Positions 19,038-56,925 of a stretch of DNA of 64,000 nucleotides are shown here, piece after piece. The notes beneath the pieces were generated by a model that was not told the origin of the DNA, did no database searches, and was given only the letters and a program-made list of their open reading frames with translations. Numbering within the stretch: the first letter of the stretch is position 1; each line of letters starts with the position of its first letter. The position numbers and the translations under genes are program-made. This DNA is from Sulfurospirillaceae bacterium (GTDB taxonomy: Bacteria; Campylobacterota; Campylobacteria; Campylobacterales; Sulfurospirillaceae): contig JAQUGO010000005.1 of NCBI GenBank assembly GCA_028684065.1, forward strand, positions 124,001 to 188,000. The letters are read 5' to 3'.

Positions 19038-21032
19038 TCAAATTTTTATTTTGGGTTCTCCAAAATAATAGCCTTGAAACTCATCAATACCGAGCTTATA
19101 AGCGATATCAAAAACTTCTTGGCAATGAATATACTCTGCTACCGTATGGATACCCAGCTCTTTGGAAAAAAAGACAATGGCTTTGACCAACTCATATGAT
19201 TTTTTATCTGTATGAATATTTTGAATGAGGCTACCATCAATTTTAATATAATCAGGTGCTAATTCGAAGATATGGCTAAAATTAGAAAAACCTGTACCAA
19301 AATCATCAATGGCAAAACGTACGCCTAAAAGACGAAAATCATTCATAAAATGTTTTAAGATTTTATAGTTTTGGATATTTTCTGATTCTACAATTTCAAA
19401 AATCAAAAATTTTCCAATATCATGAGCAATGATAAACTTTTTAAGTTCTGCATGTAAGGATTTATTGAGAATATCGTGATAATTTAAATTCACACTAATG
19501 GAAATATGATGCGAAGCACATTCTCTAAAGCTCCGCAAGAGAGTCATACTTGAGATTTGGTTGTAGTGCCGTGTTTGTGAAGCAATTTCCAAAAAAGAAG
19601 CCGGTGAAATATAGCTCACTTCTCCATTAATATCAGTTTCTTCAAGGCGCATCAATGCTTCGTATTTGGTAATGTTTTGATGGCGATCAACGATAGGTTG
19701 AAAAAAAGGAACAAAGCACTCTTTTTCGATACCTTCAATGATTCTTTTTTTCCATTGCGCTCCTTGTTTGATCTCTCGCATAGAATCTAATGCTTTATCG
19801 TAAAAGACATATTCTTTATGTAACTCTTTGGCTCTATTCAGCGCAATATCGGCTGTGCCTAAAGCATTATTTTTTTCAAAGGAAATGCCTGCGCAAAGGT
19901 CTAAGTAGATGAAATTTTCAATAGTCGTGATATAAATTTTTTTGTTTTCGACGGTTTTAAAAAGATCACTTAAAAGGGAGATACAGTGATTATAATTTAT
20001 TTCAGGTAAATCTTTGTACAGCACAAATTCATCACCAGCAATACGATAGACACTTAAGTTATATGTCTGAGCAAATGTTTTAAGAACGGTAGCAAAAACG
20101 ATTAATACTTCATTCCCTACTTCTACACCATAGAGTTCATTAATCGTACGAAAAGAGTTAATATCAATAATAATGATTGCAGGATTTTGCGCTTTTTTAA
20201 TATCTTGTAAAAGGAGTATCCTATTATTGAGTTTGGTTAAAGAATCAACATAGAGTTTGTTTTCCAGTTCTTTATAAAGATTAATAATTTGGAGAAGAAT
20301 ATTGTATAGAACAACGAGAACAACGATGATACTCAAGGTAATAAGCAAAAATTCATATCGATGGTACTGAGTTTGTTTAGACGCACTTTGTTGTTCCAAA
20401 TGACTATACTGTATCGAATCATTGAGCAGTATTTCAGTGAGATTATTTCTTAATTCGTCAAATAGTGAAGCAAAATTTTTATTAAAGACTCTAATTTCTT
20501 GGATGAGTGTTTGTGTGTTCGGATTATTTTGAGCAAAATAGAGGTCTCTTTTGTCTAAATTCGCAGTGTGCTCGCGTATCAATGTATGAATGTGTTGTAA
20601 TTTTAATTCAAGAGAACTGTAGGTAGAAGATTCTTGTAAGTTAGGCGTACTTTTTGCATAAGATAAATAGGTCAAATGCATGTTGTTTTGTGAAATTTGA
20701 TTCGTGTAAACCCCTCCATTGTTAAGAACAAATAGTCCTTCTTCTATGGTAGCTATAATCCTCTCTGCATTGTGGACAACATCTTCGCGTTGCTTTTTAG
20801 TAGTGGTCGCTGCTCCCATTTCGAGTAAGGTGGTGTGTAAGTAAGAGAGTTCATACAATAGTTGCCTATTGATTTCTATTTTTGTTTTGAGGTTGTGGCT
20901 TTGAGCAATCAGTTCATTGCCTAAATAATAAAAAAAGAAATGTAACGAAATAACAGAAGCAATACTGACAAAAAAGGTTAGGAGTAATAGAATAATGTAT
21001 TTAAAAAGAACTTTATTGATAATATGTCCCAT
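19038..21032 (-). CDS. Membrane GGDEF/EAL cyclic-di-GMP protein
   Basis: A 664-residue protein. Two membrane helices (about residues 9-32 and 230-252) flank a periplasmic helical domain. A GGDEF domain follows with the signature changed to AGDEF (RIAGDEFVLYK). The EAL domain has EALMRLE, the DDFGTGFSNFSH loop and IKIDGSLI. The catalytic EAL residues look intact, so phosphodiesterase activity is likely; the cyclase half may be regulatory. It starts 14 bp after selB with AAGAAGG as ribosome site, so it is probably the last gene of the selAB operon. Confidence 0.85.
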   Translation of the reverse strand: MGHIINKVLFKYIILLLLTFFVSIASVISLHFFFYYLGNELIAQSHNLKTKIEINRQLLYELSYLHTTLLEMGAATTTKKQREDVVHNAERIIATIEEGLFVLNNGGVYTNQISQNNMHLTYLSYAKSTPNLQESSTYSSLELKLQHIHTLIREHTANLDKRDLYFAQNNPNTQTLIQEIRVFNKNFASLFDELRNNLTEILLNDSIQYSHLEQQSASKQTQYHRYEFLLITLSIIVVLVVLYNILLQIINLYKELENKLYVDSLTKLNNRILLLQDIKKAQNPAIIIIDINSFRTINELYGVEVGNEVLIVFATVLKTFAQTYNLSVYRIAGDEFVLYKDLPEINYNHCISLLSDLFKTVENKKIYITTIENFIYLDLCAGISFEKNNALGTADIALNRAKELHKEYVFYDKALDSMREIKQGAQWKKRIIEGIEKECFVPFFQPIVDRHQNITKYEALMRLEETDINGEVSYISPASFLEIASQTRHYNQISSMTLLRSFRECASHHISISVNLNYHDILNKSLHAELKKFIIAHDIGKFLIFEIVESENIQNYKILKHFMNDFRLLGVRFAIDDFGTGFSNFSHIFELAPDYIKIDGSLIQNIHTDKKSYELVKAIVFFSKELGIHTVAEYIHCQEVFDIAYKLGIDEFQGYYFGEPKIKI

Positions 21033-21046
21033 TACTGCCTTCTTTT

Positions 21047-22888
21047 TTAAATAGACGCTAAAACTCTTCTATTTTCTTCTTTCTTGATATCATCAAAATT
21101 ATCTAAATAATCCAAATAGGCAACCAAATATTTTCGGCTCATATCAAAATGTTCTTTAAATGACTTAATGTCAATGCCATTTTCATGGCGCATAATCTCA
21201 CGTATTTTGCTCATCATCTCACTTAAAACATTAGAACTTACAAAAATATTGTGCTCTAGTCTAACCACTTTGCGTGCACGTGTTAAACTTTTGAGCGCAT
21301 CATCGCCCATTTTTCGGTCGATATCTAATTCTTCATAGATATTATAAGGAGCATCTGGCATATATTCTGCTTGTGAAATAATAGTATATATTTTATCTTC
21401 AACCAGCCTTTCTATATTGGAAATATCAACGTTAGCATTTTTATAAATACCATTTTCAAGTGCCAAAATTCCTTCTTCGCAAAGCGATTGAAGAACACTT
21501 TCGATAAAGCCTGTACTAGCCCATTTGAGTTTGAGCGTCAGCGAGTTGGCTGAAAGTAGAGCATAAGCATTTTTGGCATAGATGGCTTTGATAATAGTCA
21601 TTAATTCGCCTCGTGTCTCCAAAGGATAAAGGACAAGAGCTTTTTCATCTACAAAAATGCCGTCAATGGATTTTGCAATCAAGAGTGCTTCGTCGTGGTT
21701 AATACCAAAGCGCTGATTGGATGAGATAAGGCCAAACCCACGTTTGTGCATACTGACTAAAAGAGTAAAGGCTGTTTTGAAATCTTTGGTATTCAGTGCT
21801 TTTAGGAGCTCCAATTTCACCTTTTTTTTCATTGGGTCATTAATGGGATTGAGAATTCGTCCTCCACCGATGGTTCGACCTGAAGCACAAAGGATAAAAG
21901 GCTCTCCGTAAACTAAAAAGAGGGTTTTGTTGAATTGAAGTTTGGCAAAGCCATTTTGCAATTCATTCTCCCCTTCATAAAATAAGATACGTGCCTCTGT
22001 TTGTTTGGTGCCCACAAATAAAATGACTTTAGAGTTGTGTTTTAAGCTATGTCCACCAATACCTTCAATCCATACATCAGCCGCATCAAAGCCTCGGATA
22101 TAGCCTTTTTTACACAGTAAAGCGCCTTTTTCAAAAGCTGTTTTTTGGGCATTTTGTAAATTGATAGCGGTGCGCTGAGAGGAGAGCGCTTGTGGAACAT
22201 CATGATCGTGAACTTGTATATTTCGCACGGTAAATTCTTTTTCTAACTCCGGTGCAAAAAGCTTATCCCCGACTTTAACACTGCCATCCAGTACCGTTCC
22301 CGTTACAACTGTTCCAGCGCCTGCAATGGAAAAAGAGCGGTCAACGTAGTAGCGAAAGAGACCATTGCTGGGTTTTTCAATCGAAGGCAGTGAAAAGAGT
22401 GCATTTTTAAGTGTTTCAATCGAAGTTTTGTCGTAAATACTGACAGGAATAATTTGCGTTAGGTGTAAATACTGTAAGCTTTTGAGGTGTTCTTTGATTT
22501 CAAACTCTCGAAGTTCAATCATCTCTGGTGTTGCTAAATCTTTTTTTGTGAGAGCTATGATAATATTTTTTACATGTAGCAGATTGAGAATTTCTAAATG
22601 CTCCTTGGTTTGAGGCATCATACCTTCATTGGCATCAACAACGACCATACTTGCATCAAAGCCAAAGGCTCCTGCTATCATATTTTTAAGTAATTTTTCG
22701 TGCCCAGGTACATCAATAAAGGCGACATTGGTGTAGGTGTTTTGCATACTTGAAAAACTGAGATTAATCGTAATACCTCGGCGTTTTTCTTCTTCGAGTG
22801 TATCGCCTACAAAACCCGTTAAAGCTTCAATAAGGGCTGTTTTACCATGGTCAACATGACCTGCCGTTCCTACGATAATATAATTCAT
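21047..22888 (-). CDS. selB: Selenocysteine-specific elongation factor SelB
   Basis: A 613-residue translation GTPase that carries Sec-tRNA to UGA codons marked by a SECIS hairpin. The G1 motif is GTAGHVDHGKTAL (about residues 7-19), G3 is DVPGHEKLL and G4 is TKKDL. The EF-Tu-like domains are followed by C-terminal winged-helix repeats (about 420-613) that bind the mRNA hairpin. The gene overlaps selA by 4 bp. Its clients are the two fdhA genes in this window. Confidence 0.95.
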   Translation of the reverse strand: MNYIIVGTAGHVDHGKTALIEALTGFVGDTLEEEKRRGITINLSFSSMQNTYTNVAFIDVPGHEKLLKNMIAGAFGFDASMVVVDANEGMMPQTKEHLEILNLLHVKNIIIALTKKDLATPEMIELREFEIKEHLKSLQYLHLTQIIPVSIYDKTSIETLKNALFSLPSIEKPSNGLFRYYVDRSFSIAGAGTVVTGTVLDGSVKVGDKLFAPELEKEFTVRNIQVHDHDVPQALSSQRTAINLQNAQKTAFEKGALLCKKGYIRGFDAADVWIEGIGGHSLKHNSKVILFVGTKQTEARILFYEGENELQNGFAKLQFNKTLFLVYGEPFILCASGRTIGGGRILNPINDPMKKKVKLELLKALNTKDFKTAFTLLVSMHKRGFGLISSNQRFGINHDEALLIAKSIDGIFVDEKALVLYPLETRGELMTIIKAIYAKNAYALLSANSLTLKLKWASTGFIESVLQSLCEEGILALENGIYKNANVDISNIERLVEDKIYTIISQAEYMPDAPYNIYEELDIDRKMGDDALKSLTRARKVVRLEHNIFVSSNVLSEMMSKIREIMRHENGIDIKSFKEHFDMSRKYLVAYLDYLDNFDDIKKEENRRVLASI

Positions 22889-24225
22889 TGCTCATCCAAA
22901 ATAGTTTTAATAGTGTGAATCAGTTGTGATTCAACTTCAGGTAAAAGGCTTCTAAAATCAAGCAAAAACTGCTCATTTTCAATTCGTCCAATCACGTGAT
23001 GTTCTCTAAATTTCTTTTCTAAAACGGTTGCCTTGCCTTTGATATGTAAAGCAACCGTAGGAAACTTGCGATTAGGCAATGTACCGCCTCCCATATAGGT
23101 GTCACTGTATATCACGTCGCATCGATTTTCCCCTACACTTTCTCTGACATGGGAGACTCTGTTTGTGAGAGCTTCTACACTTTGAAACAGTAACCATAAG
23201 GTAGGAATGACTTCATATTCTTCTTTGAGGTAGGCTTTAATGCTCTCTTCTAAAAGACAAAGAGTGATTTTATCAACACGCAACATTCGTAAGAGTTGAT
23301 TCTTCTTCAATTCAGCAATTAATTCTTTACGCCCAGCGATAATACCCGCTTGAGCGCTGCCAAAAAGCTTGTCGCCACTAAAACTAATCAGTGAAGGTTG
23401 TAAGGCTAAAATCTCCTCCAATGATGCTTCTCGAAGACCAAGATTGTAGGGTAATTTGGGAACATAACCACTGCCTAAATCATAATAATCAATTAAATGA
23501 TGTTTATCTGCTAATGCTTTAATTGCCTCGTAATCAACGGCTTCGCTAAAGCCTTCCATTGTAAAATTAGATTGATGGACTTTCATCAGCATAGCAGTGT
23601 TTTCACTGATAGCATTTTGATAATCAAGCTGCTTTGTTTTATTGGTTGCACCCACTTCATGCAAAATTGCACCACTTTGCTTCATCACTTCAGGGATACG
23701 AAAACTACCGCCAATTTCAACAAGTTCACCCCGTGAAACAACGACTTCTTTATTTTTTGCAAAGGTATTCAAAATAAGAAAAACTGCTGCCGCATTGTTG
23801 TTCACAACCAAAACATCTTCGACATGTAAAAGATTTTTAAGATGACCCGTAATGTGTTCATAACGTTCGCCTCGGCACCCTTGTTCAAGATTATACTCAA
23901 GGTTTGAGTAGTTACAAATGATAGGCTTAGCACGTTCTAAGAGGGTTTCACTGATAAGACTGCGCCCCATATTGGTATGCAAAATAACACCTGTGGCATT
24001 AATAAGTGGTTTCAAGGAAGGCTCAAAAAGTTTATCATAGGCTGTTTTAACGTTTTGTAGAAGAGCTGTTTCGTCAACACAGTTTACTTCGTTTTTCAAA
24101 ATACGATCGCGTAAAGTCTCAATAGCTTCTCGCGCTAATCGTGTTAAAAGATGGGTGTTGAGCCCTTCAAACAAAGGATGTGTGATAAACTTATCAACTT
24201 TGGGAAGTTCTCGTAAAGGATTCAT
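22885..24225 (-). CDS. selA: L-seryl-tRNA(Sec) selenium transferase SelA
   Basis: A 446-residue PLP enzyme that converts seryl-tRNA(Sec) to selenocysteyl-tRNA with selenophosphate. Landmarks are INATGVILHTNMGRS (about 79-93), VNNNAAAVFLILN, and the PLP lysine in SFSGDKLFGSAQAG (about 282). It overlaps the upstream response regulator gene and the downstream selB by 4 bp each. This makes translational coupling across a regulator-selenium junction likely. Confidence 0.95.
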   Translation of the reverse strand: MNPLRELPKVDKFITHPLFEGLNTHLLTRLAREAIETLRDRILKNEVNCVDETALLQNVKTAYDKLFEPSLKPLINATGVILHTNMGRSLISETLLERAKPIICNYSNLEYNLEQGCRGERYEHITGHLKNLLHVEDVLVVNNNAAAVFLILNTFAKNKEVVVSRGELVEIGGSFRIPEVMKQSGAILHEVGATNKTKQLDYQNAISENTAMLMKVHQSNFTMEGFSEAVDYEAIKALADKHHLIDYYDLGSGYVPKLPYNLGLREASLEEILALQPSLISFSGDKLFGSAQAGIIAGRKELIAELKKNQLLRMLRVDKITLCLLEESIKAYLKEEYEVIPTLWLLFQSVEALTNRVSHVRESVGENRCDVIYSDTYMGGGTLPNRKFPTVALHIKGKATVLEKKFREHHVIGRIENEQFLLDFRSLLPEVESQLIHTIKTILDEQ

Positions 24226-24896
24226 GTATTCTCCGGAAGGGGTAATTTGGTTTCATTAAAGAGGTATTTTTTATTTTGAATTTTGGTTAAAATGCCTTGG
24301 TCACTGAGTTGCTTAAAGAGTTTAATAACGGTTGGTTTGCTGACATCTACGCGTTCCATTAATTCGCTGTAAGAGTAGTTGAGGGTATTGTCGTTGTCAA
24401 GATTTTTGATGATAAAACGGATGATTTCGACTTGTTTACTGTCGGTGACAGCAGAAATCATTTTAATAATATTGTAAGAGCGTTCAATTTCTTTGGCTTG
24501 AATTTTAGGTAAGAGAACATCGTGGAGTGTATTTAAAAGCTCCTTGATGTTAACAGGCTTGATAATATAATCATTGACATGTAGTTTAATAGCATCCAAG
24601 AGGTATTCCGTATCTGTAAAGGCAGTTGTGAGAATAGAAGGAATTTCAATTTCTAGGTCATGTTTGAGCATTTTAAGAAAATCGAGTCCATTGCTATTGC
24701 GTAAATGAATATCAGAGATGATAACGTCGATTTTTTCAGCTTTAATAATTTCCAATGCTTCCTCAACAGTTTGAACAGGATATATTTTTTTGACAAAATC
24801 CTCTAATACACTGGTGGTATGTTTTAATAGGTCAGCTTCATCTTCAATATAGAGGATTGAAAAACTACCCAGTAAGTCAAAATTTCGTTTATTCAT
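24222..24896 (-). CDS. Response regulator with Crp/MarR-like winged helix
   Basis: A 224-residue protein. I start at the ATG at 24896, seven bases after AGAGG. The receiver domain has YIEDEADL, phospho-acceptor Asp in VIISDIHLRNSNG and Lys in YIIKPVNI. Instead of an OmpR or NarL domain, the C-terminus has a winged helix (about 150-215, with YSELMERVDVSKPTVIKLFKQL) of the Crp/MarR/ArsR sort. It overlaps the upstream kinase by 8 bp and the downstream selA by 4 bp. Confidence 0.8.
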   Translation of the reverse strand: MNKRNFDLLGSFSILYIEDEADLLKHTTSVLEDFVKKIYPVQTVEEALEIIKAEKIDVIISDIHLRNSNGLDFLKMLKHDLEIEIPSILTTAFTDTEYLLDAIKLHVNDYIIKPVNIKELLNTLHDVLLPKIQAKEIERSYNIIKMISAVTDSKQVEIIRFIIKNLDNDNTLNYSYSELMERVDVSKPTVIKLFKQLSDQGILTKIQNKKYLFNETKLPLPENT

Positions 24897-26505
24897 CGCT
24901 TGCCTCTTCGGTTTGAATCGTCTGTTTTGGGATTTCAATGGTAAACATTGAGCAGGCATAAAATGATGGTGAATCTAGCTTATGCTTTATATTTTTACAC
25001 CATATATGACCTTGCATATGCTTTTCAACCATCTGCTTAGACATATAAAGACCAACGCCTGTACCCACACTTTGGTGTTTTGTTGTAAAATAGGGGTCGA
25101 AAACCTTTGGTATTATATCATTTTTTATACCACCCCCATTGTCGATCACATTGATGTAAACACGTTCAATACTCTCTTTAGCGATAATGCGGATAATCTT
25201 TTTGTCTAAACTTTTTTGTGAACTTAAGATATCTTTGGAGTTACCGATAAGATTTAAAAGGACATGAATGAGTTCATTTTTAAAGCCAAAAACCTCTAAA
25301 TCATCTTTGAGCGAAAGCGAAATTTCAATCTCTTCACGCTCTAATTGATATTTCGAAAGATCAATGGATTTTTGGATAACATTTTTAATACTAAAGTTTT
25401 TTTTGCTCTTGTTGGGATTAAAAAAGGTTCGAAAATCTTCCAAAGTGTCTGACATGTTTTGCGAAAGGAGGTGGGCATCAGCGACGCGAGAGTTGATAAA
25501 ATCACGGTCTAATTTACCCAGTGCAAATTTACTTTCAAAACTTTGGATAATCATCATCAAGGCTCCCAATGGTTGTCTCCATTGATGAGCGATATTTTGA
25601 AGCATCTCACCCAAACTGGCCAATCGAGCTTGTTGGAACATAATATTGTCTTTTTTTCGGCTATTTTCGACCTCTTTTTTAATACGGTTTTCAAGAGAAG
25701 CATTGAGAAGACGCAACTCTTTTGTTTTTCGTGAGATATTTTCTTCAAGATAGTTATGGAGATTTTTAAAATGAGTGAAAATCGTAAAAAGAACCATAGA
25801 GATAAAAAAGAAAATAAGGCCAATAAGAAAAATAAGCATATAGGTGCTGGTTTGGAATAAACGGTCATTCGTCTCTTTTTCATTAATAGATTGTTTAAGG
25901 TGACTATTAATGAGACTTGAGAGGTAAATATTGAGTGAATTTGTTTCAAGAGAGAGACTATCGATTAAATAAAGGGCCTCTTCCGTGCGTGATTTTCGAA
26001 GATGTTCAAGAATGGTGTTTAATTGTGAGTCGATATTAGACATTTTAATATTTATTTTTTCGACAATACCTCGCTGAAAAATAGTTTTTTCTGGAAGGTT
26101 GTGATCCATCAAAAAGAAATTTAGCCAACGGCTTGCAAAATAAGGAAGTCCATTAATAGGTGTGTCGATAGATATTTTGTAATTTTCCCATTGTTTGGTA
26201 ATAATTTGTTGTGCCAGAAAAATAACTTCAATAGCATCTCCATTGCTGATTTGGTCAAACTTGATATCGTAAAGCGTTTCGCCAATGTTGACACGGTACA
26301 TATCTTTAATTTCTTCAAGTTCCACTTGAGGCAGAGTGTGTTTTTGGAAAAGCGATTCATAGTCATATTTAAGTGCAAAGATAGAAATAAACATCAAAAA
26401 GCCTATGAGCATCATACCGCTGAGAATAATGACAATAAGAATTTTCGTTTTATTAGAAAATTTGATATGGTCTAATTTATTATTGATAAATTGAAGTAAA
26501 GTCAT
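24889..26505 (-). CDS. Membrane sensor histidine kinase of a three-component system
   Basis: A 538-residue kinase. I start at the ATG at 26505, directly after the stop of the upstream binding-protein gene; longer readings overlap that gene. It has two membrane helices (about residues 23-46 and 220-245) around a periplasmic domain of about 170 residues, then a coiled coil, the H-box QNIAHQWRQPLGALM, and an ATPase domain with DNGGGIKNDIIPKVF and GTGVGLYMSKQMV. The binding protein and response regulator flank it, so signal flow from periplasm to DNA can be drawn directly. Confidence 0.85.
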   Translation of the reverse strand: MTLLQFINNKLDHIKFSNKTKILIVIILSGMMLIGFLMFISIFALKYDYESLFQKHTLPQVELEEIKDMYRVNIGETLYDIKFDQISNGDAIEVIFLAQQIITKQWENYKISIDTPINGLPYFASRWLNFFLMDHNLPEKTIFQRGIVEKINIKMSNIDSQLNTILEHLRKSRTEEALYLIDSLSLETNSLNIYLSSLINSHLKQSINEKETNDRLFQTSTYMLIFLIGLIFFFISMVLFTIFTHFKNLHNYLEENISRKTKELRLLNASLENRIKKEVENSRKKDNIMFQQARLASLGEMLQNIAHQWRQPLGALMMIIQSFESKFALGKLDRDFINSRVADAHLLSQNMSDTLEDFRTFFNPNKSKKNFSIKNVIQKSIDLSKYQLEREEIEISLSLKDDLEVFGFKNELIHVLLNLIGNSKDILSSQKSLDKKIIRIIAKESIERVYINVIDNGGGIKNDIIPKVFDPYFTTKHQSVGTGVGLYMSKQMVEKHMQGHIWCKNIKHKLDSPSFYACSMFTIEIPKQTIQTEEASDE

Positions 26506-26506
26506 C

Positions 26507-27670
26507 TTAATGTCCATACTTTTCAATGATATGAAACTTACCATTGGAGTACGTCGAGAGGTAAACTTGATTTAATAATTGTGAATGGTGATATTCTAAA
26601 GGAATATTGTTTAATGTAAATTTATTGACACTCTTAAGATTGTCTATAAAGGCTTTACGATTGATATCGGCATCATTGCTTTGTAAAGCTTGGACTACCG
26701 TTTTGGCGGCAAGATAGGATTCATAAGAGACTAAGGAAGGTTTTTCTTTCGGGTAATAAAAACTAAGGAGACTAAGGTATTTTTCTGCCTCTTGCGAATG
26801 TGACTCATCATAGGAAGGAACCGTTTGTGAAAAAAGAATATTATCACCATTGCCACCTAGTTCATCTATGAGTGCGTTGGCATTGACAAAAGAGATGGGA
26901 CAAAACGTAATATTGTCAAAACAACACTCTTTTACTTTGTCGATAAACCGTGCTGTTGGTTTGTAGGCACCCACCAAGATAATAGCTTCAGGCTTCACAG
27001 AAGCTATTTCGCGAATAGCATGTCGAATAGAAAGAGTGTTTCGTTTATAGGTACCTTCCGCTTGAAGGCGTAATTGACGATTAGATAAAGCCGTGCTAAG
27101 CGCAATATAACCTTCTTCGCCATAATCATCATTTTGGTAAAAAATAGCAAATCTTGTAAAGCCTTTTTTCTCAGTTAAAAAAGCAACTAATGCTTCAATT
27201 TCATCTTGATAGGAACTTCGAAAGTTGATGATGTTGTCTGCGTTATTTTCTCGCAAGAAAGAGGCTCCTGTGTAGGGAGCAACAAAAGGAATATCGCTAT
27301 TGGTAATCAAAGGAAGAATACGTTTAACCGTAGGGGTTCCGACAAAGCCAAAAAGTCCAAAGACTTTATCTTTATTAATGAGGGTTAAGGTATTGGTGAG
27401 AGTATTCTCCGGTTCATATTTGTCATCGTATTGAATAAATTCAATTTTTCTGCCATTCACACCACCTCTAGCATTGATATGACTAAAATAAGTATTAGCA
27501 CCAACCACAATATCTTGTCCCAAGTTGCTATTGATACCGCTCAACGGTAGCGAGGCCCCTAAAACAATGGGTTCCTTTGTAGTACGTGGCTGTTTATGGT
27601 AAAAAAACCATGTACTTATAACAGTGACTATAATGGTGGCAAGCAAGATAAGAAAATTTTTGTTGACCAA
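26507..27670 (-). CDS. Periplasmic binding protein (type-I fold, LivK-like) of the sensory cassette
   Basis: A 387-residue protein with an N-terminal signal or anchor helix (residues 5-23) and a Peripla_BP_6 domain starting IVLGASLPLSGINSNLGQ. Proteins of this kind usually serve ABC importers of branched-chain amino acids or amides. No importer genes are present here, and it is followed by a kinase and regulator. It is therefore best read as the sensory input subunit. It is divergent from the first fdh operon (166 bp between starts). Ligand unknown. Confidence 0.82.
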   Translation of the reverse strand: MVNKNFLILLATIIVTVISTWFFYHKQPRTTKEPIVLGASLPLSGINSNLGQDIVVGANTYFSHINARGGVNGRKIEFIQYDDKYEPENTLTNTLTLINKDKVFGLFGFVGTPTVKRILPLITNSDIPFVAPYTGASFLRENNADNIINFRSSYQDEIEALVAFLTEKKGFTRFAIFYQNDDYGEEGYIALSTALSNRQLRLQAEGTYKRNTLSIRHAIREIASVKPEAIILVGAYKPTARFIDKVKECCFDNITFCPISFVNANALIDELGGNGDNILFSQTVPSYDESHSQEAEKYLSLLSFYYPKEKPSLVSYESYLAAKTVVQALQSNDADINRKAFIDNLKSVNKFTLNNIPLEYHHSQLLNQVYLSTYSNGKFHIIEKYGH

Positions 27671-27759
27671 TATAAAACACCTTTAGTGAGTATTGATGAG
27701 TGTTAATTATAACTTAATAAAATTAATTTAAGCCTAAGAAATAGGGCATTAAATTGAGA

Positions 27760-27765
27760 TATAAT
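27760..27765 (+). promoter_or_regulatory. -10 box of the first fdh operon
   Basis: TATAAT at 27760-27765 within an A/T-rich tract, about 71 bp before the first start codon. It is the best promoter for the polyferredoxin and chaperone genes. No ATATG-N9-CATAT site is present here. Confidence 0.5.
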
Positions 27766-27835
27766 GTCTCTTGTTAAGAACCATTTAAAGGAAATCATTT
27801 TACAATCTAGGTAAACAAATATTGACCGATAAGAG

Positions 27836-29539
27836 ATGGAAATATACACAATGAAAAAAGACTACGCATTTTACAACCAGATTGGTTTAGATTTCCCTTT
27901 AAGAGATGACATTGAGATAGTATCTAGTGTGCCTAAAGAAAGTACTGGCGGGTATATTATTTCCAATAATGAAGCCGTAAAAGCAGAGATTTATGCTCCA
28001 GAGATTGACTTTTATCTGAAACAATCACATGATACTATTGCTACAAAAATAAGCAATGTTGCGAAATTATATGATATTCGCTCGGTCGGATTTGACTATG
28101 CACAAGACATGGATTATGAGCAAGCAGTGGGTGATAAGTTACTGATTGTTACAGAAGATGAAAAGTACCATAATTTAAAAGAAAATTTAGCACACGATGG
28201 TTTTACATCTATTGTTGTTACCCCTTCAATGATTGTTGACGTCAATGGACATGTCGGAAACTTACATGTAAGCCTTCGTAAAGAAGGTGAAATTTACGAT
28301 GTAGAAACAGATCAAATCATATGGTGGGATGCTCCTATCTTTGCAACTAAGCAAAGTGGTGTGTATGACCCTAATGTTTTAGGCTTAGAGGGTGCATTAA
28401 AAAGAGTACATGATAATTTAGGGGTTTATCGCTACAAAAATTATATCAATTATGACCCTTCTATTTGTCAGTACCACGAACGCCGAGAAGAAATTTGTGG
28501 CAAATGTGCTGAGGTTTGTCCGACGGTTGCCATTTTAAAAGAAGACGAAACCAAGCATTTGGTTTTTTCACATATAGACTGCCATGGCTGCGGTGGCTGT
28601 ATCAGTGTTTGCCCTAGTGGAGCTCTTGATTATACACAGATGCCTAGAAATGCTTTTGCGCATTTAAGCGGTTATTTTAAAGATTCCATCGCATTAATTA
28701 TTCCGAATAAAATGGATTTAGGATTGATGGATATTGAACTTAAAGAGGGTGTACTTCCTTTAATGATAGCAGGAGAAAAATACCTCCACGAAGCACATAT
28801 CCTCAATCTTTTACAAACCAGTGGCAATCCCATCATTTTTTACACGGATTTTATCTCTAAAGGAACGGGTGATGTGATTCGTATCATCAATGAAATATTT
28901 CAGCGAAAGTACCATAAAAAAGCCATTTATATTTGTGAGGATACCAAGGAGCTTCAAAGTATTTTTGATACCCTTGAACCTATCCCTGAATGTAAATATG
29001 GTATCAATGAAGCAGATTTACGAAAGCGAGAAATTTTTTCTGCACGTTTAGCCCATTTAGTGGGGAATGAAGACTTGGGTATCGTGAAGGCAGGAGAGCA
29101 TATCCATTACGGTGATATTGTGATTAATGAAGCGAATTGTACTTTGTGTTTGAGCTGCGTTGGAGCGTGTAATGTCAGAGCTTTAACAGCGCATCCTGAA
29201 GATAATTCTTTACGTTTTAATCCTTCAATTTGTACGAATTGTGGCTATTGTGAAGTGACATGTCCCGAAAAAGAGTGTTTAACAGTGATTAAAGATGAGA
29301 TATCTTTAAAACCTAGTTGGTTTACCCAAAAAGTGATGGCTAAAGATGAGCTCTTTGCCTGTACTGAATGTGGAAAACAGTTTGCAACGGTTAAAGCCGT
29401 TCAAAAAATTGCTGCTTTAATGACACCTATATTTGGTAGTGATGACACTAAAATTAAAACACTCTATTGTTGTGCAGATTGTAAACCAAAAGTGATGTTT
29501 CAATCACATCTAAATAGCCAAATAATAGAGGGAGCATAA
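27836..29539 (+). CDS. Fdh-associated polyferredoxin-like Fe-S protein
   Basis: A 567-residue protein without signal peptide, so cytoplasmic. Two pairs of ferredoxin-type cysteine motifs are visible: ICGKCAEVCPTVA and CHGCGGCISVCPSGA (about residues 220-265), then CTLCLSCVGACNVRA and CTNCGYCEVTCPEKE (about 437-480). A C-terminal Zn-ribbon-like part has CTECGKQF and CCADCK. An internal ATG at 27851 is an alternative start. It heads the first fdh operon and has no counterpart in the second. A role in electron transfer or maturation is inferred from position only. Confidence 0.75.
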   Translation: MEIYTMKKDYAFYNQIGLDFPLRDDIEIVSSVPKESTGGYIISNNEAVKAEIYAPEIDFYLKQSHDTIATKISNVAKLYDIRSVGFDYAQDMDYEQAVGDKLLIVTEDEKYHNLKENLAHDGFTSIVVTPSMIVDVNGHVGNLHVSLRKEGEIYDVETDQIIWWDAPIFATKQSGVYDPNVLGLEGALKRVHDNLGVYRYKNYINYDPSICQYHERREEICGKCAEVCPTVAILKEDETKHLVFSHIDCHGCGGCISVCPSGALDYTQMPRNAFAHLSGYFKDSIALIIPNKMDLGLMDIELKEGVLPLMIAGEKYLHEAHILNLLQTSGNPIIFYTDFISKGTGDVIRIINEIFQRKYHKKAIYICEDTKELQSIFDTLEPIPECKYGINEADLRKREIFSARLAHLVGNEDLGIVKAGEHIHYGDIVINEANCTLCLSCVGACNVRALTAHPEDNSLRFNPSICTNCGYCEVTCPEKECLTVIKDEISLKPSWFTQKVMAKDELFACTECGKQFATVKAVQKIAALMTPIFGSDDTKIKTLYCCADCKPKVMFQSHLNSQIIEGA

Positions 29540-29543
29540 ATAT

Positions 29544-30251
29544 ATGGATAAAGAATCAATTAACAAAGCAAGAGCCGTTTATTATGGGCTATTTGCATCG
29601 CTTTTTATATTTTTTGAAAAAGAAGAACAATTTCAAAAGTTAATCAAAACGGTAGAAGTACTCAAGCAAAATCCACTAGATGAATACACAGATGTAGCAC
29701 TTAACAACATGTACACGATGTTAAATGAAAGAGGTTTTGAGGTGTTAAAACAAGAAAATAGTAATCTTTTTTTTAACCCTTATGCTTCGTTTATACCCAT
29801 AACGGCTTCTTTTTACGATGAGCAACGAGATGATGGCAAAAAACGTTTAGAGATGGTGAATTATGTTTTAAGCTCAAAATTTAGACGTGACACCGATACG
29901 TTTAAAGAGCTTGAAGATCATGTTGGATTTATTCTTTTGTTTATGCAAAAACTTATTGTTGATGCTTTACAGGGAGATAAAAATTCAGAAGCACTTTCAA
30001 AAAAAGTTTTTGAGCATATTTTAAATGGTTTTATTGATGAATTTATTACCAATGTCTATGTACATAATAATAGTCATTTTTACAAAGAACTTGCCATTGT
30101 TTTTCAAGCTTTTTTAGAGATTGAGAGACTTTTTCTTGGCATTGCCAAGCCACTTCACGAAGAGAAGCGAAAAATTGTATCTTTAGAAAAAAAACAAAAG
30201 AAAGCACCTCAAAAAAGAGTGACGCGCAATCTTGATGAAATAGTTTTATAG
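29544..30251 (+). CDS. fdhM: TorD/DmsD-like formate dehydrogenase chaperone, copy 1
   Basis: A 235-residue all-helical protein of the TorD-like family that binds the Tat signal of molybdoenzymes until cofactor loading is complete. Visible features are the N-terminal ARAVYYGLFASLF and the central ITASFYDEQRDDGK motif (family pattern with conserved Y and E/D). It is 4 bp after the polyferredoxin gene and followed by a hairpin-rich gap before the small Tat gene. A paralogue heads the second operon. The symbol follows usage for Campylobacterota. Confidence 0.8.
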   Translation: MDKESINKARAVYYGLFASLFIFFEKEEQFQKLIKTVEVLKQNPLDEYTDVALNNMYTMLNERGFEVLKQENSNLFFNPYASFIPITASFYDEQRDDGKKRLEMVNYVLSSKFRRDTDTFKELEDHVGFILLFMQKLIVDALQGDKNSEALSKKVFEHILNGFIDEFITNVYVHNNSHFYKELAIVFQAFLEIERLFLGIAKPLHEEKRKIVSLEKKQKKAPQKRVTRNLDEIVL

Positions 30252-30269
30252 TCAAAACGTTCTTTTTAT

Positions 30270-30308
30270 TTCTGTAGTAATATGTATATTTTGCATATTA
30301 CTACAGAA
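30270..30308. promoter_or_regulatory. Operator-like inverted repeat A (15-bp arms, ATATG-N9-CATAT core)
   Basis: Perfect 15-bp arms (30270-30284 and 30294-30308) with a 9-bp centre that contains TATATT (30285-30290), a possible -10. The core TAATATG-N9-CATATTA (30278-30300) matches three other sites in the window, all next to fdh or wtp genes. A T-run (GTTTTTC) follows, so as RNA it could also act as a terminator. I infer a ModE-type operator at an internal promoter. Confidence 0.6.
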
Positions 30309-30330
30309 GTTTTTCAAAAAATGAATGATG

Positions 30331-30371
30331 AAGAGACACAAATATGCAATTATTGCATATTTGTGTCTCTT
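30331..30371. promoter_or_regulatory. Operator-like inverted repeat B (20-bp arms, same core)
   Basis: A 41-bp near-continuous palindrome: 20-bp arms 30331-30350 and 30352-30371 around a single T. The centre AAATATG-N9-CATATTT (30340-30362) repeats the core of site A. The two centres are 62 bp apart, close to six helical turns, which suits cooperative binding. It lies 26 bp upstream of the ribosome site of the small Tat gene. Confidence 0.6.
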
Positions 30372-30407
30372 TGGACATCAAAGAGAAAAAAAGTGCAGGA
30401 GGAAATC

Positions 30408-30611
30408 GTGCAAGAAGTTAGAAGGGGTTTTATCAAGAAAACTCTAGGCGTTAGTGCCTTAGTTGCGGTGGGTGGCGTTACGGCTATCGCTAGTGACAAA
30501 GGTGATAAAGCAAGGGTGTCAAACGGCGTTGTTGTAGGAAAATCTAAGAAAAAAGAGATTCTTTACAAGAGAACAGCACAGTGGGATGCGTTTTATAACG
30601 CAGCTTATTAA
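30408..30611 (+). CDS. Small Tat-signal protein before fdhA, copy 1
   Basis: A 67-residue protein starting at GTG (30408), five bases after AGGAGG. A longer reading from 30282 runs through the palindromes and is not supported. It has a twin-arginine motif (VRRGFIKKT), a hydrophobic helix, and a C-terminal part SNGVVVGKSKKKEILYKRT. That part is nearly identical in the second operon's copy. It matches the 'formate dehydrogenase region TAT target' family. Function unknown; assembly or membrane attachment of the enzyme is plausible. Confidence 0.8.
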   Translation: MQEVRRGFIKKTLGVSALVAVGGVTAIASDKGDKARVSNGVVVGKSKKKEILYKRTAQWDAFYNAAY

Positions 30612-30624
30612 AGGAGAGTAAAGC

Positions 30625-33465
30625 ATGAGTAAAGAGATACTTCACGATGTATCTTTACGCATGGGAAGACGATCATTTCTTAAAATGGCGGCTATTGGAG
30701 CAAGTTTTGGAGCAACCGCAGGGTTTGCATCCAGTGACTCGATTCGTTCAGCTACACCAACAGAGATAAAAGATCCCTACCCAGGCTCAAAGAGAGTGAA
30801 AACAATTTGTAGTATTTGTTCTGCAGGATGTGGCATTGTAGCCGAAGTTCACAATGGTGTATGGGTGCGCCAAGATGTCGCACAAGACCATCCTATTAGT
30901 GAGGGAAGCCATTGTTGTAAGGGCATTGACCAGATTGATTTGGTTAAGAGTACGCAACGTATAAAATATCCTTTGAAAAAAGTGGCAGGTAAATGGCAAC
31001 GTATCAGTTGGGATCAAGCCATTAATGAAATTTCAACCAAAATGTTGAAATTAAGACAAGAAAATGGCCCAGATGTCGCCATGTTTATGGGCTCAGCAAA
31101 ATTTAACTTGCAACAATCTTACTACTTTAGTAAATTTGCAGCAATGTGGGGAACAAACAATATCGATCACGTAGCAAGAATCTGACATAGCGCAACAGTC
31201 GCCGGTGTGGCGAATACATGGGGTTATGGAGCTATGACAAATCACTTTGGTGATATTGTTGGACATTCTAAAGCAATTTTCGTGATCGGAGCAAACTCAG
31301 CTGTAGCCAATCCAATTGGATTTAAACACATGCTGCAAGCAAAAGACAGAAACAATGCAAAACTTATCGTAGTAGACCCAGTCTATACACGTAGTGCTGC
31401 TAAAGCAGATCACTATCTACGTATCCGCTCAGGTACAGATATCGCATTAATCTATGGTATCTTACATGTCATCTTCAAAAATGGTTGGGAAGATAAACAA
31501 TTTATCGAACAACGAACATATGGTATTGAAGACGTCAAAAAAGAAGCAGAAAAATGGACACCAGAAGTGGCTTCTGATGTGACCGGTATTCCTGCTGAAC
31601 AAATCGTTCAAATCGCAACTCTTTTAGCCAAAACTAAACCAGCAACCGTTGTTTGGGCACTTGGTATTACACAGCATTCTGTGGGTAGTTCCAACACCAG
31701 AATTCTTCCGATTTTACAATTAGTGCTTGGCAATATGGGTAAAAAAGGCGGTGGCTGTAACATCATCCGCGGACATGATAACGTTCAGGGCTCAACTGAT
31801 ATGTGTAATCTTGCCGATTCGCTCCCAGGCTATTACGGTTTAGCGGATGGCTCTTGGAAACACTTTGCCAAAGGTTGGGGTGTTGATTTTGAGTGGATAC
31901 AAAAAAGATTTTTTGAACCAAAATGGATGAATGCTAAAGGCTTTTCACTAGCAAAATGGTACCAAGGTGTACTTCAAGAGGAAAAAACCTATTCATCTAG
32001 TCCCATTCGTGCTCTTTGGATTCAAGGAACAGGTATCACTTCGATGTCTCAAACACTAAAAGTCAAAGAAGCTCTTGATAAATTAGATTTATTGGTTATC
32101 GCAGAACCTTTTGTGAATGAAGCTGCTGTTATTACAGATAAAAAAGATGATGTGTACATCCTCCCTGCATGTACGCAATTTGAAACAGAAGGTTCCGTTA
32201 CAGCAACCAATCGTTCGGCTCAATGGAGAAGTAAAGTCATTGAACCTTTGTATGAATCAAAATCAGATGAGCAGATCATGTTTGAATTTGCCAAAAAATT
32301 TGGATTTTATGATGAGTTTGTACGCGGCATGATGATGGGTGTGAAAGAGGGCAAAATACAACAAGTCAAAAAAGACTTTGTGTGGCCAGATGACGCATCC
32401 GATGAAATTGCGCGTATCATTAAGACGATTGGACTCGATGGCTGGACGGCAAAAAGATTGCGTAAACATCAAGAAAACTGGCATATGTTTGACCCAATTA
32501 CCTTAGAAGGCAAAGGACCAATGAAGGGTGAGTATTATGGTTTACCATGGCCGTGTTGGAATGAAAATCATGGCGGTAGTCCAATCCTTTATGATGTTGA
32601 CACATCGGTCAAAGAGGGCGGTATGGGCTTTAGAAATCGATTTGGCTTGGAGCACAATGGTGTCAGTCAAATGGCAGATGATAAAGTGACGGTTAAAGGC
32701 TCTCTTGTTCAAGGTGGTTATCCAGAAATCACTAAAGACAACATTGAAAAAGTTCTTGGTATCACCCTTAGTGATGCTGAAAAAGCATTAATTGGTGCAA
32801 ACTGGAAAGTAGATTATAGTGGCATTATCGAGAAAAAATGTATGGAAAAAGGTGTAGCTCCCTATGGAAATGCCAGGGCACGTGCGATTGTTTGGGAGTT
32901 TCCAGATCCTGTTCCAATGCATAGAGAACCTATTCATTCACCACGTACTGATTTGGTGGCTAAATATCCTACCTATGAAGATCAAAAAAATAACTTTAGG
33001 GTAGAAGTGAAGTATAAATCAGAACAGCAAAAACAAGATTGGGTCAAAGATTTCCCAACGATGATTGTGAGTATGAGGGTTGTTAACCTTTCAGGGGCCG
33101 GAATGCTTGAGCGAACCAGTAAATATCTTTCCCATATTACGCCAGAGATGTTTGCCAATATCCACCCTGATTTAGCACTGAGCTATGGCATTCGAGATGG
33201 TGAAGATATGTGGTTACATGCTCCTCATGGCACAAAAATTAAGGTCAAGGCACATCATAACGTGAGTGTCACACCTGATCGTATCTGTTTACCGTATAAC
33301 TTTGCGGGTGTTTTCCAAGGGGTAGATTTAAGTGCCAATTATCCTGAAGGGACGAAGCCATATACCATTGGTGAAAGTTCAAATATCATCACAAACTATG
33401 GATTTGACATCATTACACAAATCTCAGAATACAATGCCGGCTTATGCCGTGTTGAAAAAGCGTAG
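30625..33465 (+). CDS. fdhA: Selenocysteine formate dehydrogenase catalytic subunit, copy 1
   Basis: A 946-residue periplasmic formate dehydrogenase (formate to CO2 plus electrons) read through an in-frame TGA at 31183 as Sec187. The sequence continues in frame on both sides (VARI-Sec-HSATVAGVANTWG). The Tat signal is MGRRSFLKM, the N-terminal [4Fe-4S] ligands are Cys62, 65, 69 and 97 or 98 (CSICSAGC ... HCCKG), and bis-MGD domains follow. A SECIS-like hairpin follows the TGA. A strong AAAGGAGA precedes the start. Standard gene callers will split this gene in two. Confidence 0.95.
31183..31213 (+). promoter_or_regulatory. Sec codon and bacterial SECIS element in fdhA copy 1
   Basis: The TGA is at 31183-31185. 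Thirteen bases later TCGCC (31199-31203) pairs with GGCGA (31209-31213) around the loop GGTGT. A short stem with a G/U-rich loop at this distance is what SelB recognises in E. coli fdhF. The block is nearly identical in the second copy. Confidence 0.85.
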
Positions 33466-33476
33466 GGGGGTGTGCA

Positions 33477-34040
33477 ATGAGTGAAATGGCACGAATGAAA
33501 TTTTATTGTGATGATAAGCGATGTATCGAATGTTTTGCCTGTTCTGTAGCATGTGCGGAAGCGCATGAATTACCAGTGGGCATTAGTCGAAGAAAAGTTG
33601 TAACTTTGTTTGATGGTGTAGAAGGCAAAGAGATTTCAACATCCATTGCATGTATGCATTGTACGGATGCTCCATGTGAGCAAGTATGCCCCGTGGATTG
33701 TTTCTATATCAGAGAAGACGGTATCGTTTTACATGATAAAGATAAATGTATCGGTTGTGGATATTGTTTATATGCTTGTCCTTTTGGTGCTCCACAGTTC
33801 CCACGAGATGGTGCCTTTGGACATAAAGGTTCCATGGATAAATGTACCATGTGTGCTGGTGGGCCTTTGGAGACGAACTCTAAAGAAGAGCGAGAACTAT
33901 ATGGGCAAAACCGTATTGCTGAGGGCAAAGTACCTATGTGTGCGGCAGTTTGTTCTACCAATGCATTATTGGTAGGCGATGCAGAAATGGTTTCAGACAT
34001 TTATCGTAATCGTGTTGCATCCAGAGGTAAAAACGCCTAG
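33477..34040 (+). CDS. fdhB: Formate dehydrogenase iron-sulfur subunit, copy 1
   Basis: A 187-residue electron-transfer subunit with four ferredoxin-type clusters. The cysteine groups are CIECFACSVAC, CMHCTDAPCEQVC, CIGCGYCLYAC and CTMCAGG, with a last Cys near AAVCSTNALL. It passes electrons from FdhA to the membrane cytochrome. It starts 11 bp after fdhA behind GGGGGGTG. About 200 bp in its middle (33621-33820) are nearly identical to copy 2. Confidence 0.93.
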   Translation: MSEMARMKFYCDDKRCIECFACSVACAEAHELPVGISRRKVVTLFDGVEGKEISTSIACMHCTDAPCEQVCPVDCFYIREDGIVLHDKDKCIGCGYCLYACPFGAPQFPRDGAFGHKGSMDKCTMCAGGPLETNSKEERELYGQNRIAEGKVPMCAAVCSTNALLVGDAEMVSDIYRNRVASRGKNA

Positions 34041-34041
34041 A

Positions 34042-34964
34042 AAAGGAGGGGTAATGAAAAAGATAGTCTATTTCTTCATTGCCACTCTGGCTTTGGCCTC
34101 TGTTGCATATGCAGCAGAGAGTCAAATTTGGGGTGAGATGCGGATTCCGAATATATTGGGATATGGGCAAGAACAGTCTTTGAAATTAGGTGAATTTTTT
34201 ACCTTGTGGCAAGGTCACTATATCACGACAATTTTCTTGGGGATATTGATACTTATTCCAACAGTGTTTGGGATACACTACTTGATAATAGGACCAAAGA
34301 CATTTTCACATGAAGGCAAAAAGATATTAGCTTTTAGCCTTTATAGTCGAATTGTTCACCAAATTGCTGCAATTAGCTTTATCGTGATTGTACCAACAGG
34401 TTTTATAATGGTATTTGGAAGTTTTTTTGGAGGAGGCGAATTTGTAAGAATCTGTAAAGACTTACATGGCGTCTTCACGATTCCATTTGCTATCGTTGTC
34501 ATACCAATGTTTTTGATGTGGGTTAAAGATATGTTTATTCATTTGGATGACATTAAATGGCTCATCATAGTGGGTGGATACCTATCCAAAGTGAAAAATC
34601 CAGTACCTGCGGGACGTTTTAATGCAGGTCAAAAGACATGGTACTGGCTGGCAACATTGGGCGGTATCGTGATGATAGCGACTGGAGCAACAATGTTCTT
34701 TATGGACTTTGATATAGCAATGGTAAAGAATATAACAGGCTTATCTCAAATAGATACTCTAAGAGCAGCAGCAATCCTTCATAACCTTGTAGGTTTTGCC
34801 GTTGTAATACTATTTTTTGTACATATTTATATGGCAGTCTTTGCTATAAAAGGTGCTGTACAGAGTATTATTACAGGATACATGGAAGAAGAAGAGGTTA
34901 AAATACTTCACAGTTCATGGTATCGTAAACTCAAAAAACAAGGTAAGGTTTAAGCCTTTACATG
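34042..34964 (+). repeat. 923-bp exact repeat (fdhC region, copy 1)
   Basis: From the ribosome site of fdhC to 11 bp beyond its stop, the sequence is identical by eye to 44709-45631. Identity stops abruptly at both ends; the right end falls inside a TTTACATG word (…CATGCA here, …CATGTA in copy 2). Confidence 0.9.
34054..34953 (+). CDS. fdhC: Formate dehydrogenase cytochrome b subunit, copy 1
   Basis: A 299-residue membrane subunit that takes electrons to the menaquinone pool. It has a cleavable signal-like N-terminus (to AYAAES) and four further membrane helices. Candidate haem histidines are in GHYITTIF, RIVHQIA, DLHGVFTIP and LHNLVGFAVVILFFVHIYMAV. I start at the ATG after AAAGGAGGGG (34054). 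The 299 residues are identical to the second copy at 44721. Confidence 0.93.
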   Translation: MKKIVYFFIATLALASVAYAAESQIWGEMRIPNILGYGQEQSLKLGEFFTLWQGHYITTIFLGILILIPTVFGIHYLIIGPKTFSHEGKKILAFSLYSRIVHQIAAISFIVIVPTGFIMVFGSFFGGGEFVRICKDLHGVFTIPFAIVVIPMFLMWVKDMFIHLDDIKWLIIVGGYLSKVKNPVPAGRFNAGQKTWYWLATLGGIVMIATGATMFFMDFDIAMVKNITGLSQIDTLRAAAILHNLVGFAVVILFFVHIYMAVFAIKGAVQSIITGYMEEEEVKILHSSWYRKLKKQGKV

Positions 34965-35005: not shown

Positions 35006-35848
35006 TTAGAGAGAAATTTTACGAAAGGTCATAGGGGAAACACCTGTTTCCTTTTTAAAAAATCGACTAAAATAAGAGGTATCCACAAAGCCAAGTTCGT
35101 AGGCAATTTCATTAGCATTTTTAGTGCTATACAAGAGGAGTCTTTTAGCTTCTATGAGCGTTTTAGAGCGAATATACTCACCACAAGACATACCTGTAAA
35201 TTCTTTAATAACAGTATTAAGCACTTTCATTGGAACTTTTAAAGGTTTGGCATATTCTGACGGGTGTGCTATTTGATAATGATTTTTTTCTAAGAGTTGA
35301 TTTAAAGCTGAAAAAAGACTGGTTTGAGTTGTAGAATTAACCACTTTTGGAAAGAGTCTTTGAAGAGTAATCAATAAAATTTTTAGTAGATTACAGATAG
35401 CACTTTGCTTAAGTGTCCTGTGTTCGGTAAATTCTTCATGGAGTTGGATGAGTATTTGTTCAACATCTTTATAATTTTGGTCTTGAATGTGAAGGTAATC
35501 AAAATTAAACATTGATAGATTATGAAAAAAATTATTTTCAGAAAATACAGAAAGATCAAAGCGTAGTAAAAAACAATTGAATTCTTCATCGACCGTAGGA
35601 AAATGCATTTGTGCTGGACTAAAGAAAAAAAGTGAACCTTGCTGAATAGGATAATGTTGAAAGTCGATTTGCATATCACCTTTCCCTTGGGTTACAAAGA
35701 TAATTTCATAATAAGGGTGTCTGTGAACAGGCGGTGAAACTGCATGCGTCGGGGGCGGCAAAAAACGTGTTTCTTTTATGAGAAAGTTTTTTTCACTACA
35801 AGGTTCATACCCATTATTATTAGTAAAATCTTCAATAATCTTATTCAT
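35006..35848 (-). CDS. AraC-family regulator 1 of the fdh island
   Basis: A 280-residue regulator. The N-terminal cupin-like sensor domain has the metal/ligand-type pattern PPVHRHPYYEIIFVTQGKG. Two AraC helix-turn-helix motifs make up the C-terminal 100 residues (IEAKRLLLYSTKNANEIAYELGFVDTSYFSRFFKKETG). It is a close paralogue of the next gene and a weaker one of the gene at 38812. Its position between two fdh operons suggests control of them or of the porin; no operator is evident. Confidence 0.85.
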   Translation of the reverse strand: MNKIIEDFTNNNGYEPCSEKNFLIKETRFLPPPTHAVSPPVHRHPYYEIIFVTQGKGDMQIDFQHYPIQQGSLFFFSPAQMHFPTVDEEFNCFLLRFDLSVFSENNFFHNLSMFNFDYLHIQDQNYKDVEQILIQLHEEFTEHRTLKQSAICNLLKILLITLQRLFPKVVNSTTQTSLFSALNQLLEKNHYQIAHPSEYAKPLKVPMKVLNTVIKEFTGMSCGEYIRSKTLIEAKRLLLYSTKNANEIAYELGFVDTSYFSRFFKKETGVSPMTFRKISL

Positions 35849-35945
35849 TTTAGTTAATCTCTTTTTCTGATTTGGTTCTCAATTATACTAAAGTGAGTGT
35901 GTACTGATCGTGCAATACAGATTCGGAGTAAAAGAATACGCAGTG

Positions 35946-36785: not shown

Positions 36786-36913
36786 CGTGAAAGGCTCCTT
36801 AACCAGATCAATCTTTAAAACAAATAATTGTGCCATTGGGAAAATATGAAAAACACAATAGCACAATTATTTTTTATATTAGGGAAATAACATACTTTAG
36901 TCTAAAAAGAGTT

Positions 36914-36954
36914 AAGAAGTAAAGAGCGCTTGGCGGAGAAACTCTTTACTTCTT
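36914..36954 (-). terminator. Terminator of the porin-YceI unit
   Basis: A 13-bp inverted repeat (AAGAAGTAAAGAG 36914-36926 with its complement 36942-36954). Read on the minus strand it is followed by CTTTTT, 11 bp after the YceI gene. Confidence 0.7.
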
Positions 36955-36964
36955 TTAGAAGATA

Positions 36965-37447: not shown

Positions 37448-37463
37448 ATTAAATCCTTTAATA

Positions 37464-38720: not shown

Positions 38721-38748
38721 AATTTTCTCCTAAAGATTTATAAATTCA

Positions 38749-38766
38749 AGCTGAATTATATCAGCT
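38749..38766 (-). promoter_or_regulatory. Porin -10 box embedded in an AGCTGA/TCAGCT repeat
   Basis: AGCTGA (38749-38754) and TCAGCT (38761-38766) flank ATTATA, which is a perfect TATAAT on the minus strand, about 35 bp before the porin start. A bound repressor would cover the promoter. The nearby AraC gene is a candidate controller, but no AraC-type direct repeat is clear. Confidence 0.45.
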
Positions 38767-38811
38767 AAGAAAAAAAGATAAAATGGATTTTAGGCGTTAA
38801 AAATGGTACTT

Positions 38812-39624: not shown

Positions 39625-40186
39625 TGTATAACCTTTCTTAATCTAAAATGTATCCAATATGCAATGTTCTTGTTGAAAGCTTTTTAACTTTATAAATCGT
39701 CTTTTAACAATACATATGCCTATAGATAATGAACGGACTTTATAGATTTTATCAAGTTTTGTATGGTTATCAAATGGATTTTACGGAGTTTTTATTGTAC
39801 TTTTAGGATATAAATGGAATCTTGCTCGAGATTTTTAAAAATAAAATAACTATTGTAGTTTATACGTCATATAGCAAATTTAAAAAACAGGGAGACTGAA
39901 ATAATATGCTAAATATGCATATTTAAGTAAAAATTAAGACTTGATATTACTGAGTAGACCCAACTTCCAGATAAGCTTAGATATGATACATTTACTGAAA
40001 TCGGTAAATAATTGTTTACTGATATGAGAAAAGTAATCGTTAAAAAGGGTTTTGTTTCTACAAAGATTCCGTGTTTTACCCTATAAATCGGTATATTAGA
40101 TAGATTTTTGAAAATGTTTCTTTTGAAAATGAAACAAGATAAAATTGGTCTACTTTTATTGACTTTGTGTAAAAAAGGAACAAGAC
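39625..40186. promoter_or_regulatory. 562-bp control region upstream of the second fdh operon
   Basis: No gene is evident. It holds operator-like site C (TAATATG-N9-CATATTT, 39902-39924). A second element near 39989-40024 has TTTACTGA twice and an ATTTAC-N8-GTAAAT inverted repeat (39989-40008). The operon start is about 260 bp beyond site C, so either the leader is long or there is a second promoter. The region is unusually long for this compact genome. Confidence 0.5.
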
Positions 40187-56921: not shown

Positions 56922-56925
56922 GAAA

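Follow-up and report, generated by a model that had tools for sequence, protein, structure and literature searches.

A three-component sensor that probably links formate dehydrogenase to the selenocysteine machinery in Sulfurospirillum and its relatives

Selenocysteine (Sec) decoding is usually regarded as a constitutive housekeeping function, and in Escherichia coli selA and selB are co-transcribed, with overlapping ends, outside any operon with signalling genes. In a 64,000-nucleotide stretch of a Sulfurospirillaceae genome (contig JAQUGO010000005.1, positions 124,001 to 188,000; hereafter the window), selA and selB also overlap, but here they are joined to genes for a periplasmic binding protein (PBP), a histidine kinase (HK), a response regulator (RR) and a GGDEF/EAL protein, and this whole set is divergent from a formate dehydrogenase (FDH) operon. 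The arrangement raises the question of whether an external signal might adjust Sec decoding together with formate dehydrogenase. The genes concerned are:

19038..21032 (-): GGDEF/EAL protein with GGDEF and EAL domains, a lineage-specific operon tail
21047..22888 (-): selB, Sec-specific elongation factor (TIGR00475)
22885..24225 (-): selA, L-seryl-tRNA(Sec) selenium transferase (TIGR00474)
24222..24896 (-): response regulator, receiver plus RepL-type winged helix (a longer start, 24959, appears in the ORF listing)
24889..26544 (-): membrane histidine kinase with periplasmic domain, H-box AHQWRQPL and HATPase_c (start 26544, 26517 or 26505)
26507..27670 (-): periplasmic binding protein (LivJ-type, Peripla_BP_6), with a TTG start and an N-terminal hydrophobic helix but no lipobox
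27836..29539 (+): fdhX, 4Fe-4S protein, first gene of fdh operon 1, with ATG 27851 as the likely conserved start
29544..34953 (+): remainder of fdh operon 1, encoding a TorD-type chaperone, a small TAT protein, fdhA, fdhB and fdhC

The order and single strand of the first six genes had been proposed in an earlier reading of this DNA (the sequence-only reading); our own reading of the window agrees, and Pfam and NCBIfam searches confirmed all six proteins by domain. Junctions in the operon range from an 8-bp overlap to a 14-bp gap, with some ambiguity at the kinase start: the PBP stop codon ends at 26507, giving a 1-bp gap if the HK starts at 26505, an 11-bp overlap for 26517 and a 38-bp overlap for 26544. 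The HK and RR genes overlap by 8 bp (RR ATG at 24896), selA and selB by 4 bp, and a 14-bp gap separates selB from the GGDEF/EAL gene. The 4-bp overlap between the regulator and selA, also claimed earlier, is correct and recurs in all 19 same-genus loci that we fetched; the divergence from fdh operon 1 likewise holds, with 165 bp (27671-27835) between the two operons. Within the operon, terminator-like matches were fewer than expected by chance, and promoter-like matches (50, vs 34 in shuffles) were scattered on both strands of an AT-rich stretch. Neither scan gives any sign that selA has a promoter of its own, although the RR gene may contain one. Co-transcription of the operon is likely.

The window encodes SelA (TIGR00474, 512 bits vs a cut-off of 268), SelB (TIGR00475, 300 bits vs a cut-off of 242), a SelD homologue (56830-57960) that matches the selD of relatives, and a Sec-containing product, FdhA, which together mark the Sec-decoding trait. 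Both fdhA copies have an in-frame TGA (Sec) at codon 187, at 31183-31185 in operon 1 and 41796-41798 in operon 2. Scans confined to the window found no tRNA gene, and Rfam gave no known RNA element there. The two fdhC copies (34054-34953 and 44721-45620) are 100% identical over 900 bp, with 12 and 11 further identical bases beyond, while the fdhA copies differ, a pattern of recent gene conversion or duplication. The interval that separates the fdh operons (35006-39624) contains three AraC-type regulator genes (35006, 35946 and 38812), the latter two of which flank YceI-like and porin-like genes.

The binding protein (Peripla_BP_6, E 3e-47) is predicted by AlphaFold to adopt a type-I periplasmic binding protein fold of the LivJ type (mean pLDDT 92.5). 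Because the nearest solved relatives are only 28% (4kv7, TMq 0.86) and 22% (3lop) identical, we dropped the attempt to assign a ligand from the structure; the LivJ-type fold alone is assignable. The kinase has an HATPase_c domain (6e-17), the H-box AHQWRQPL and, from a reading of its sequence, a probably periplasmic part enclosed by two hydrophobic segments. The regulator combines a Response_reg domain (4e-19) with a RepL-type winged helix (1e-7); its residues D83 and K134 are invariant, and an SKPT(V/L)IK motif is conserved in the winged helix. Binding protein, membrane kinase and regulator are thus encoded together, the composition of a PBP-dependent (three-component) two-component system. 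A paralogous PBP-HK-RR set, with a PBP about 39% identical, lies away from fdh in the same genome (L130, G000:C16:262500-282400) and is found in most Sulfurospirillum genomes. A plasmid search with the PBP returned distant ABC-transporter binding proteins only.

Gene order was followed through 399 genomes of the order, in which selA was matched in 203, the PBP in 106 (E 1e-20) and FdhX in 181 (E 1e-30); we compared 80 loci around selA and about 40 around PBP or fdhX, and took a genome to lack the system when the PBP search at E 1e-20 found none. The order PBP-HK-RR-selA-selB, divergent from fdhX, is kept throughout Sulfurospirillum and its family and in a second family (f10), which disposes of the concern, raised by the sequence-only reading against itself, that it might be unique to one strain. 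The sensor system itself is present in Sulfurospirillum (S. cavolei, S. diekertiae), Arcobacteraceae and other Campylobacterales, and in most families that have it fdhX is divergent from it. In Arcobacteraceae-type and other families, PBP-centred loci show the system facing fdhX with selAB located elsewhere. In Campylobacteraceae-type loci (f11), fdhX faces selAB and PBP-HK-RR is absent; a further locus (L128) has the alternative order selA-selB-PBP-HK-RR. One single-contig genome (G351, L111) has a Cys-type FdhA and no selA match, yet it keeps both the system and the palindrome described below. Since the system occurs without linked selAB, and in this one case with a Cys-type FDH and no selA match, the fdh operon is its primary partner as judged by gene order, and the link to selAB is a feature of some lineages.

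Aligning the fdhX-PBP regions of the genus revealed a conserved 18-bp palindrome, GGTAAA-N6-TTTACC, just downstream of a conserved fdhX -10 box. The elements in the window, including a second site discussed below, are:

27706..27711 (-): TATAAT, probable -10 box serving the binding-protein operon and conserved across the aligned genus
27801..27806 (+): probable fdhX -10 box TACAAT, 3 bp upstream of the candidate operator and conserved in the genus alignment
27810..27827 (+): candidate operator GGTAAACAAATATTGACC, 11/12 match to GGTAAA-N6-TTTACC
40003..40020 (+): another operator-like site, GGTAAATAATTGTTTACT, 167 bp before fdh operon 2

Of 65 intergenic regions, 42 contain the dyad GTAAA-N6-TTTAC; in shuffles no dyad exceeded 6. 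Leaving family f16 aside, 63 of the 64 system loci have at least 10 of 12 matches to the full consensus upstream of fdhX, although some few of these loci are overlapping fetches from a single genome; the consensus was derived from this same fdhX set, and the comparisons with system-free genomes, selD/selA and the double-cubane reductase gene are independent of it. Among genomes without the system, 1 of 34 has it upstream of fdhX. Further fdhX genes in system genomes are all preceded by it (8/8, at 11-12/12), several of them away from the PBP gene. Family f16, in which the system has diverged, goes against the pattern, with this palindrome in none of six loci. In 18 of 25 Arcobacteraceae-type loci a second operator lies 52-56 bp upstream (mostly 55), and the pair flanks the fdhX -10 box. 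These co-occurrence counts come from genomes related by descent and carry no phylogeny correction. A conserved palindrome that accompanies the regulator and sits at the promoters of its presumed targets is what one expects of an operator, and the palindrome is probably that of this regulator.

Sites outside the fdhX region extend the picture to the Sec genes. In Arcobacteraceae-type genomes, a palindrome of at least 10/12 precedes selD or selA in 18 of 27 with the system vs 1 of 21 without it (Fisher P=1.4e-5); at 11/12 the counts are 13 of 27 and 0 of 21. Upstream sites at selD are mostly 28-76 bp from the gene, and those at selA about 210-260 bp. Control upstream regions contained a site in 0 of 114 cases for Sulfurospirillaceae and in 7 of 111 for Arcobacteraceae-type loci. 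On the other side, the Sulfurospirillum selD in the window has no good site upstream (best 9/12). Because the palindrome precedes fdhX and, in Arcobacteraceae-type genomes, selD or selA as well, these genome comparisons give good support to a joint control of formate dehydrogenase and Sec decoding.

Between them, 24 Sulfurospirillum genomes hold 37 exact palindromes vs 10 for a reversed-pattern control, and most of them precede fdhX or a double-cubane-cluster reductase gene (NF040772). Upstream regions of the latter carry an exact match in 17 of 26 cases and at least 10/12 in 20 of 26 (two counted twice), nearly all 139-147 bp before the ATG; in the present genome (L157/L353, G000:C15) the exact site in front of this anaerobic reductase gene is at 139 bp, and it is kept in most of the genus. 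In two Sulfurospirillum genomes (L226, L227) an [FeFe] hydrogenase gene is preceded by an exact palindrome at a distance of 40-57 bp. We had considered fdh operon 2 a universal target, but it is only a partial one, with sites of at least 10/12 in 7 of 18 same-genus upstream regions. We no longer count a hyf-type (formate hydrogenlyase-type) operon among the conserved targets, since its site, 343 bp before hyfA (L155, G000:C13:331477), is found in this genome only and in none of 22 relatives' loci.

We consider it probable (roughly 0.7, from sequence comparison) that the three-component system, made up of a LivJ-type PBP, an HK and a winged-helix RR, controls Sec-dependent FDH along with the selenocysteine machinery. 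Ligand binding to the PBP would alter the kinase or phosphatase activity of the HK, and the regulator, when phosphorylated, would bind the GGTAAA-N6-TTTACC palindromes, one of which lies at the fdhX transcription start in the divergent intergenic region, while a copy precedes fdh operon 2. As the fourth and fifth cistrons of the sensor operon in Sulfurospirillum, selA and selB would share its single transcript, so that Sec-tRNA synthesis and decoding would follow the sensor up and down. Where selAB is elsewhere, as in Arcobacteraceae-type genomes, the same palindrome before selD or selA would provide the coupling. At fdhX, an operator lying over the transcription start would fit repression or tuning; the selD operator, about 30 bp before a TAnAAT box, suggests activation. 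With operators over the one start but upstream of the other -10 box, both modes are possible. The core of the sequence-only reading, a periplasmic signal tuning Sec decoding along with FDH, is therefore retained on the strength of the conserved co-directional, overlapping genes, the divergence from fdhX, the shared palindrome and the sites before selD or selA; what changes is that the system belongs first to the fdh operon.

Other readings would account for parts of these data. The sensor might regulate fdh only, with selAB a passenger left behind the regulator by a prior adjacency to fdhX, and Sec decoding effectively constitutive. Campylobacteraceae-type loci, in which fdhX is divergent from selAB without any sensor genes, fit such a history, as does the existence of the system without linked selAB, once without a selA match. 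Nevertheless, we regard it as unlikely: against it stand the enrichment of operators before selD or selA in system genomes (18/27 vs 1/21) and the further order selA-selB-PBP-HK-RR of L128. About equally improbable is that the palindrome belongs to another regulator, for instance a global redox or energy regulator, and that the three-component system is a mere neighbour. The pairing of regulator and palindrome rests on co-occurrence, which another factor with the same distribution could share, and a redox regulator would equally fit the sites that precede the double-cubane reductase gene and, in some genomes, an [FeFe] hydrogenase gene. However, the palindrome is missing at fdhX in 33 of the 34 system-free genomes, including one from the Arcobacteraceae-type family f9 (G187, L089), and a genome with the paralogue only and no fdhX (G183) has no exact palindrome genome-wide. 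CemR (HP1021 family), a specific candidate for ownership, was rejected because it is present in Campylobacter and Arcobacter alike, a poor match to the absence of the palindrome from system-free genomes; in the CemR paper, Fdh is named only in a figure legend.

The fuller model of the sequence-only reading, in which the same signal also sets lifestyle through cyclic-di-GMP, fares worst, and we think it very unlikely. The GGDEF/EAL protein itself has GGDEF (8e-18) and EAL (2e-52) domains by Pfam, an AGDEF motif and, on reading, apparently intact EAL residues. Its gene, 14 bp behind selB in the window, follows selB in 3 of the 19 same-genus loci fetched (L107, L108 and L109). The remaining same-genus loci that reach beyond selB have no such gene there, and neither do other families; by its distribution, it is a patchy add-on to the operon, and this lifestyle arm is unsupported. 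A gene for an HD-domain protein resembling cyclic-di-GMP phosphodiesterases (L151, G000:C5:115792) has an exact palindrome some 40 bp in front of it, which might seem to favour the connection. That site is present in this genome only, however, and single palindrome sites may be chance, since the reversed-pattern control yields 10 exact matches against 37 in the genus.

How does the preferred reading, joint control of FDH and Sec decoding by the three-component system, relate to known systems? LuxP-LuxQ and TorT-TorS-TorR pair a periplasmic binding protein with a sensor kinase, and the present system resembles them in having a separate type-I binding protein encoded with a membrane kinase that has a periplasmic domain, and in the proposed ligand relay. 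It differs in its LivJ/HAAT-type binding protein, its receiver plus RepL-type winged-helix regulator, and its fdh and sel targets. To our knowledge, no binding protein is part of BumSR, a two-component system from the same class of bacteria. BumS of Campylobacter jejuni is described as a PAS-containing phosphatase that senses branched short-chain fatty acids, and BumSR responds to small organic acids (PMC11796366). The text of that paper mentions neither selA nor Cj1377, and it gives no binding site for BumR, which we dropped as a relative of our regulator. Also in C. jejuni, according to PMC6682613, which cites Shaw et al. (2012), FdhTU acts in the biogenesis of selenium-dependent FDH and similarly adjusts a Sec-containing FDH to selenium acquisition or use; as presented in that citing paper, however, these are post-transcriptional accessory proteins and no sensor-kinase system, and the Campylobacteraceae-type loci examined here are without PBP-HK-RR. 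We found no description of the sensor-sel-fdh system in the literature searched. It is a known type, a PBP-assisted two-component system, with an unusual regulon.

A sensor with a conserved operator in front of both the FDH and the Sec genes would turn the 21st amino acid into an inducible trait. That Sec synthesis and decoding are switched by an external compound, through the PBP and together with the main selenoprotein, by one operator family across several Campylobacterota families, and so amount to an inducible expansion of the genetic code, is a tentative proposal that we put at somewhat under even odds. The system would offer a first handle on the control of formate respiration in Sulfurospirillum and its Arcobacter relatives, and a ready regulon (fdh, sel and the double-cubane reductase) with a testable candidate site. 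In these bacteria, an external signal appears to switch the 21st amino acid jointly with the principal enzyme that uses it.
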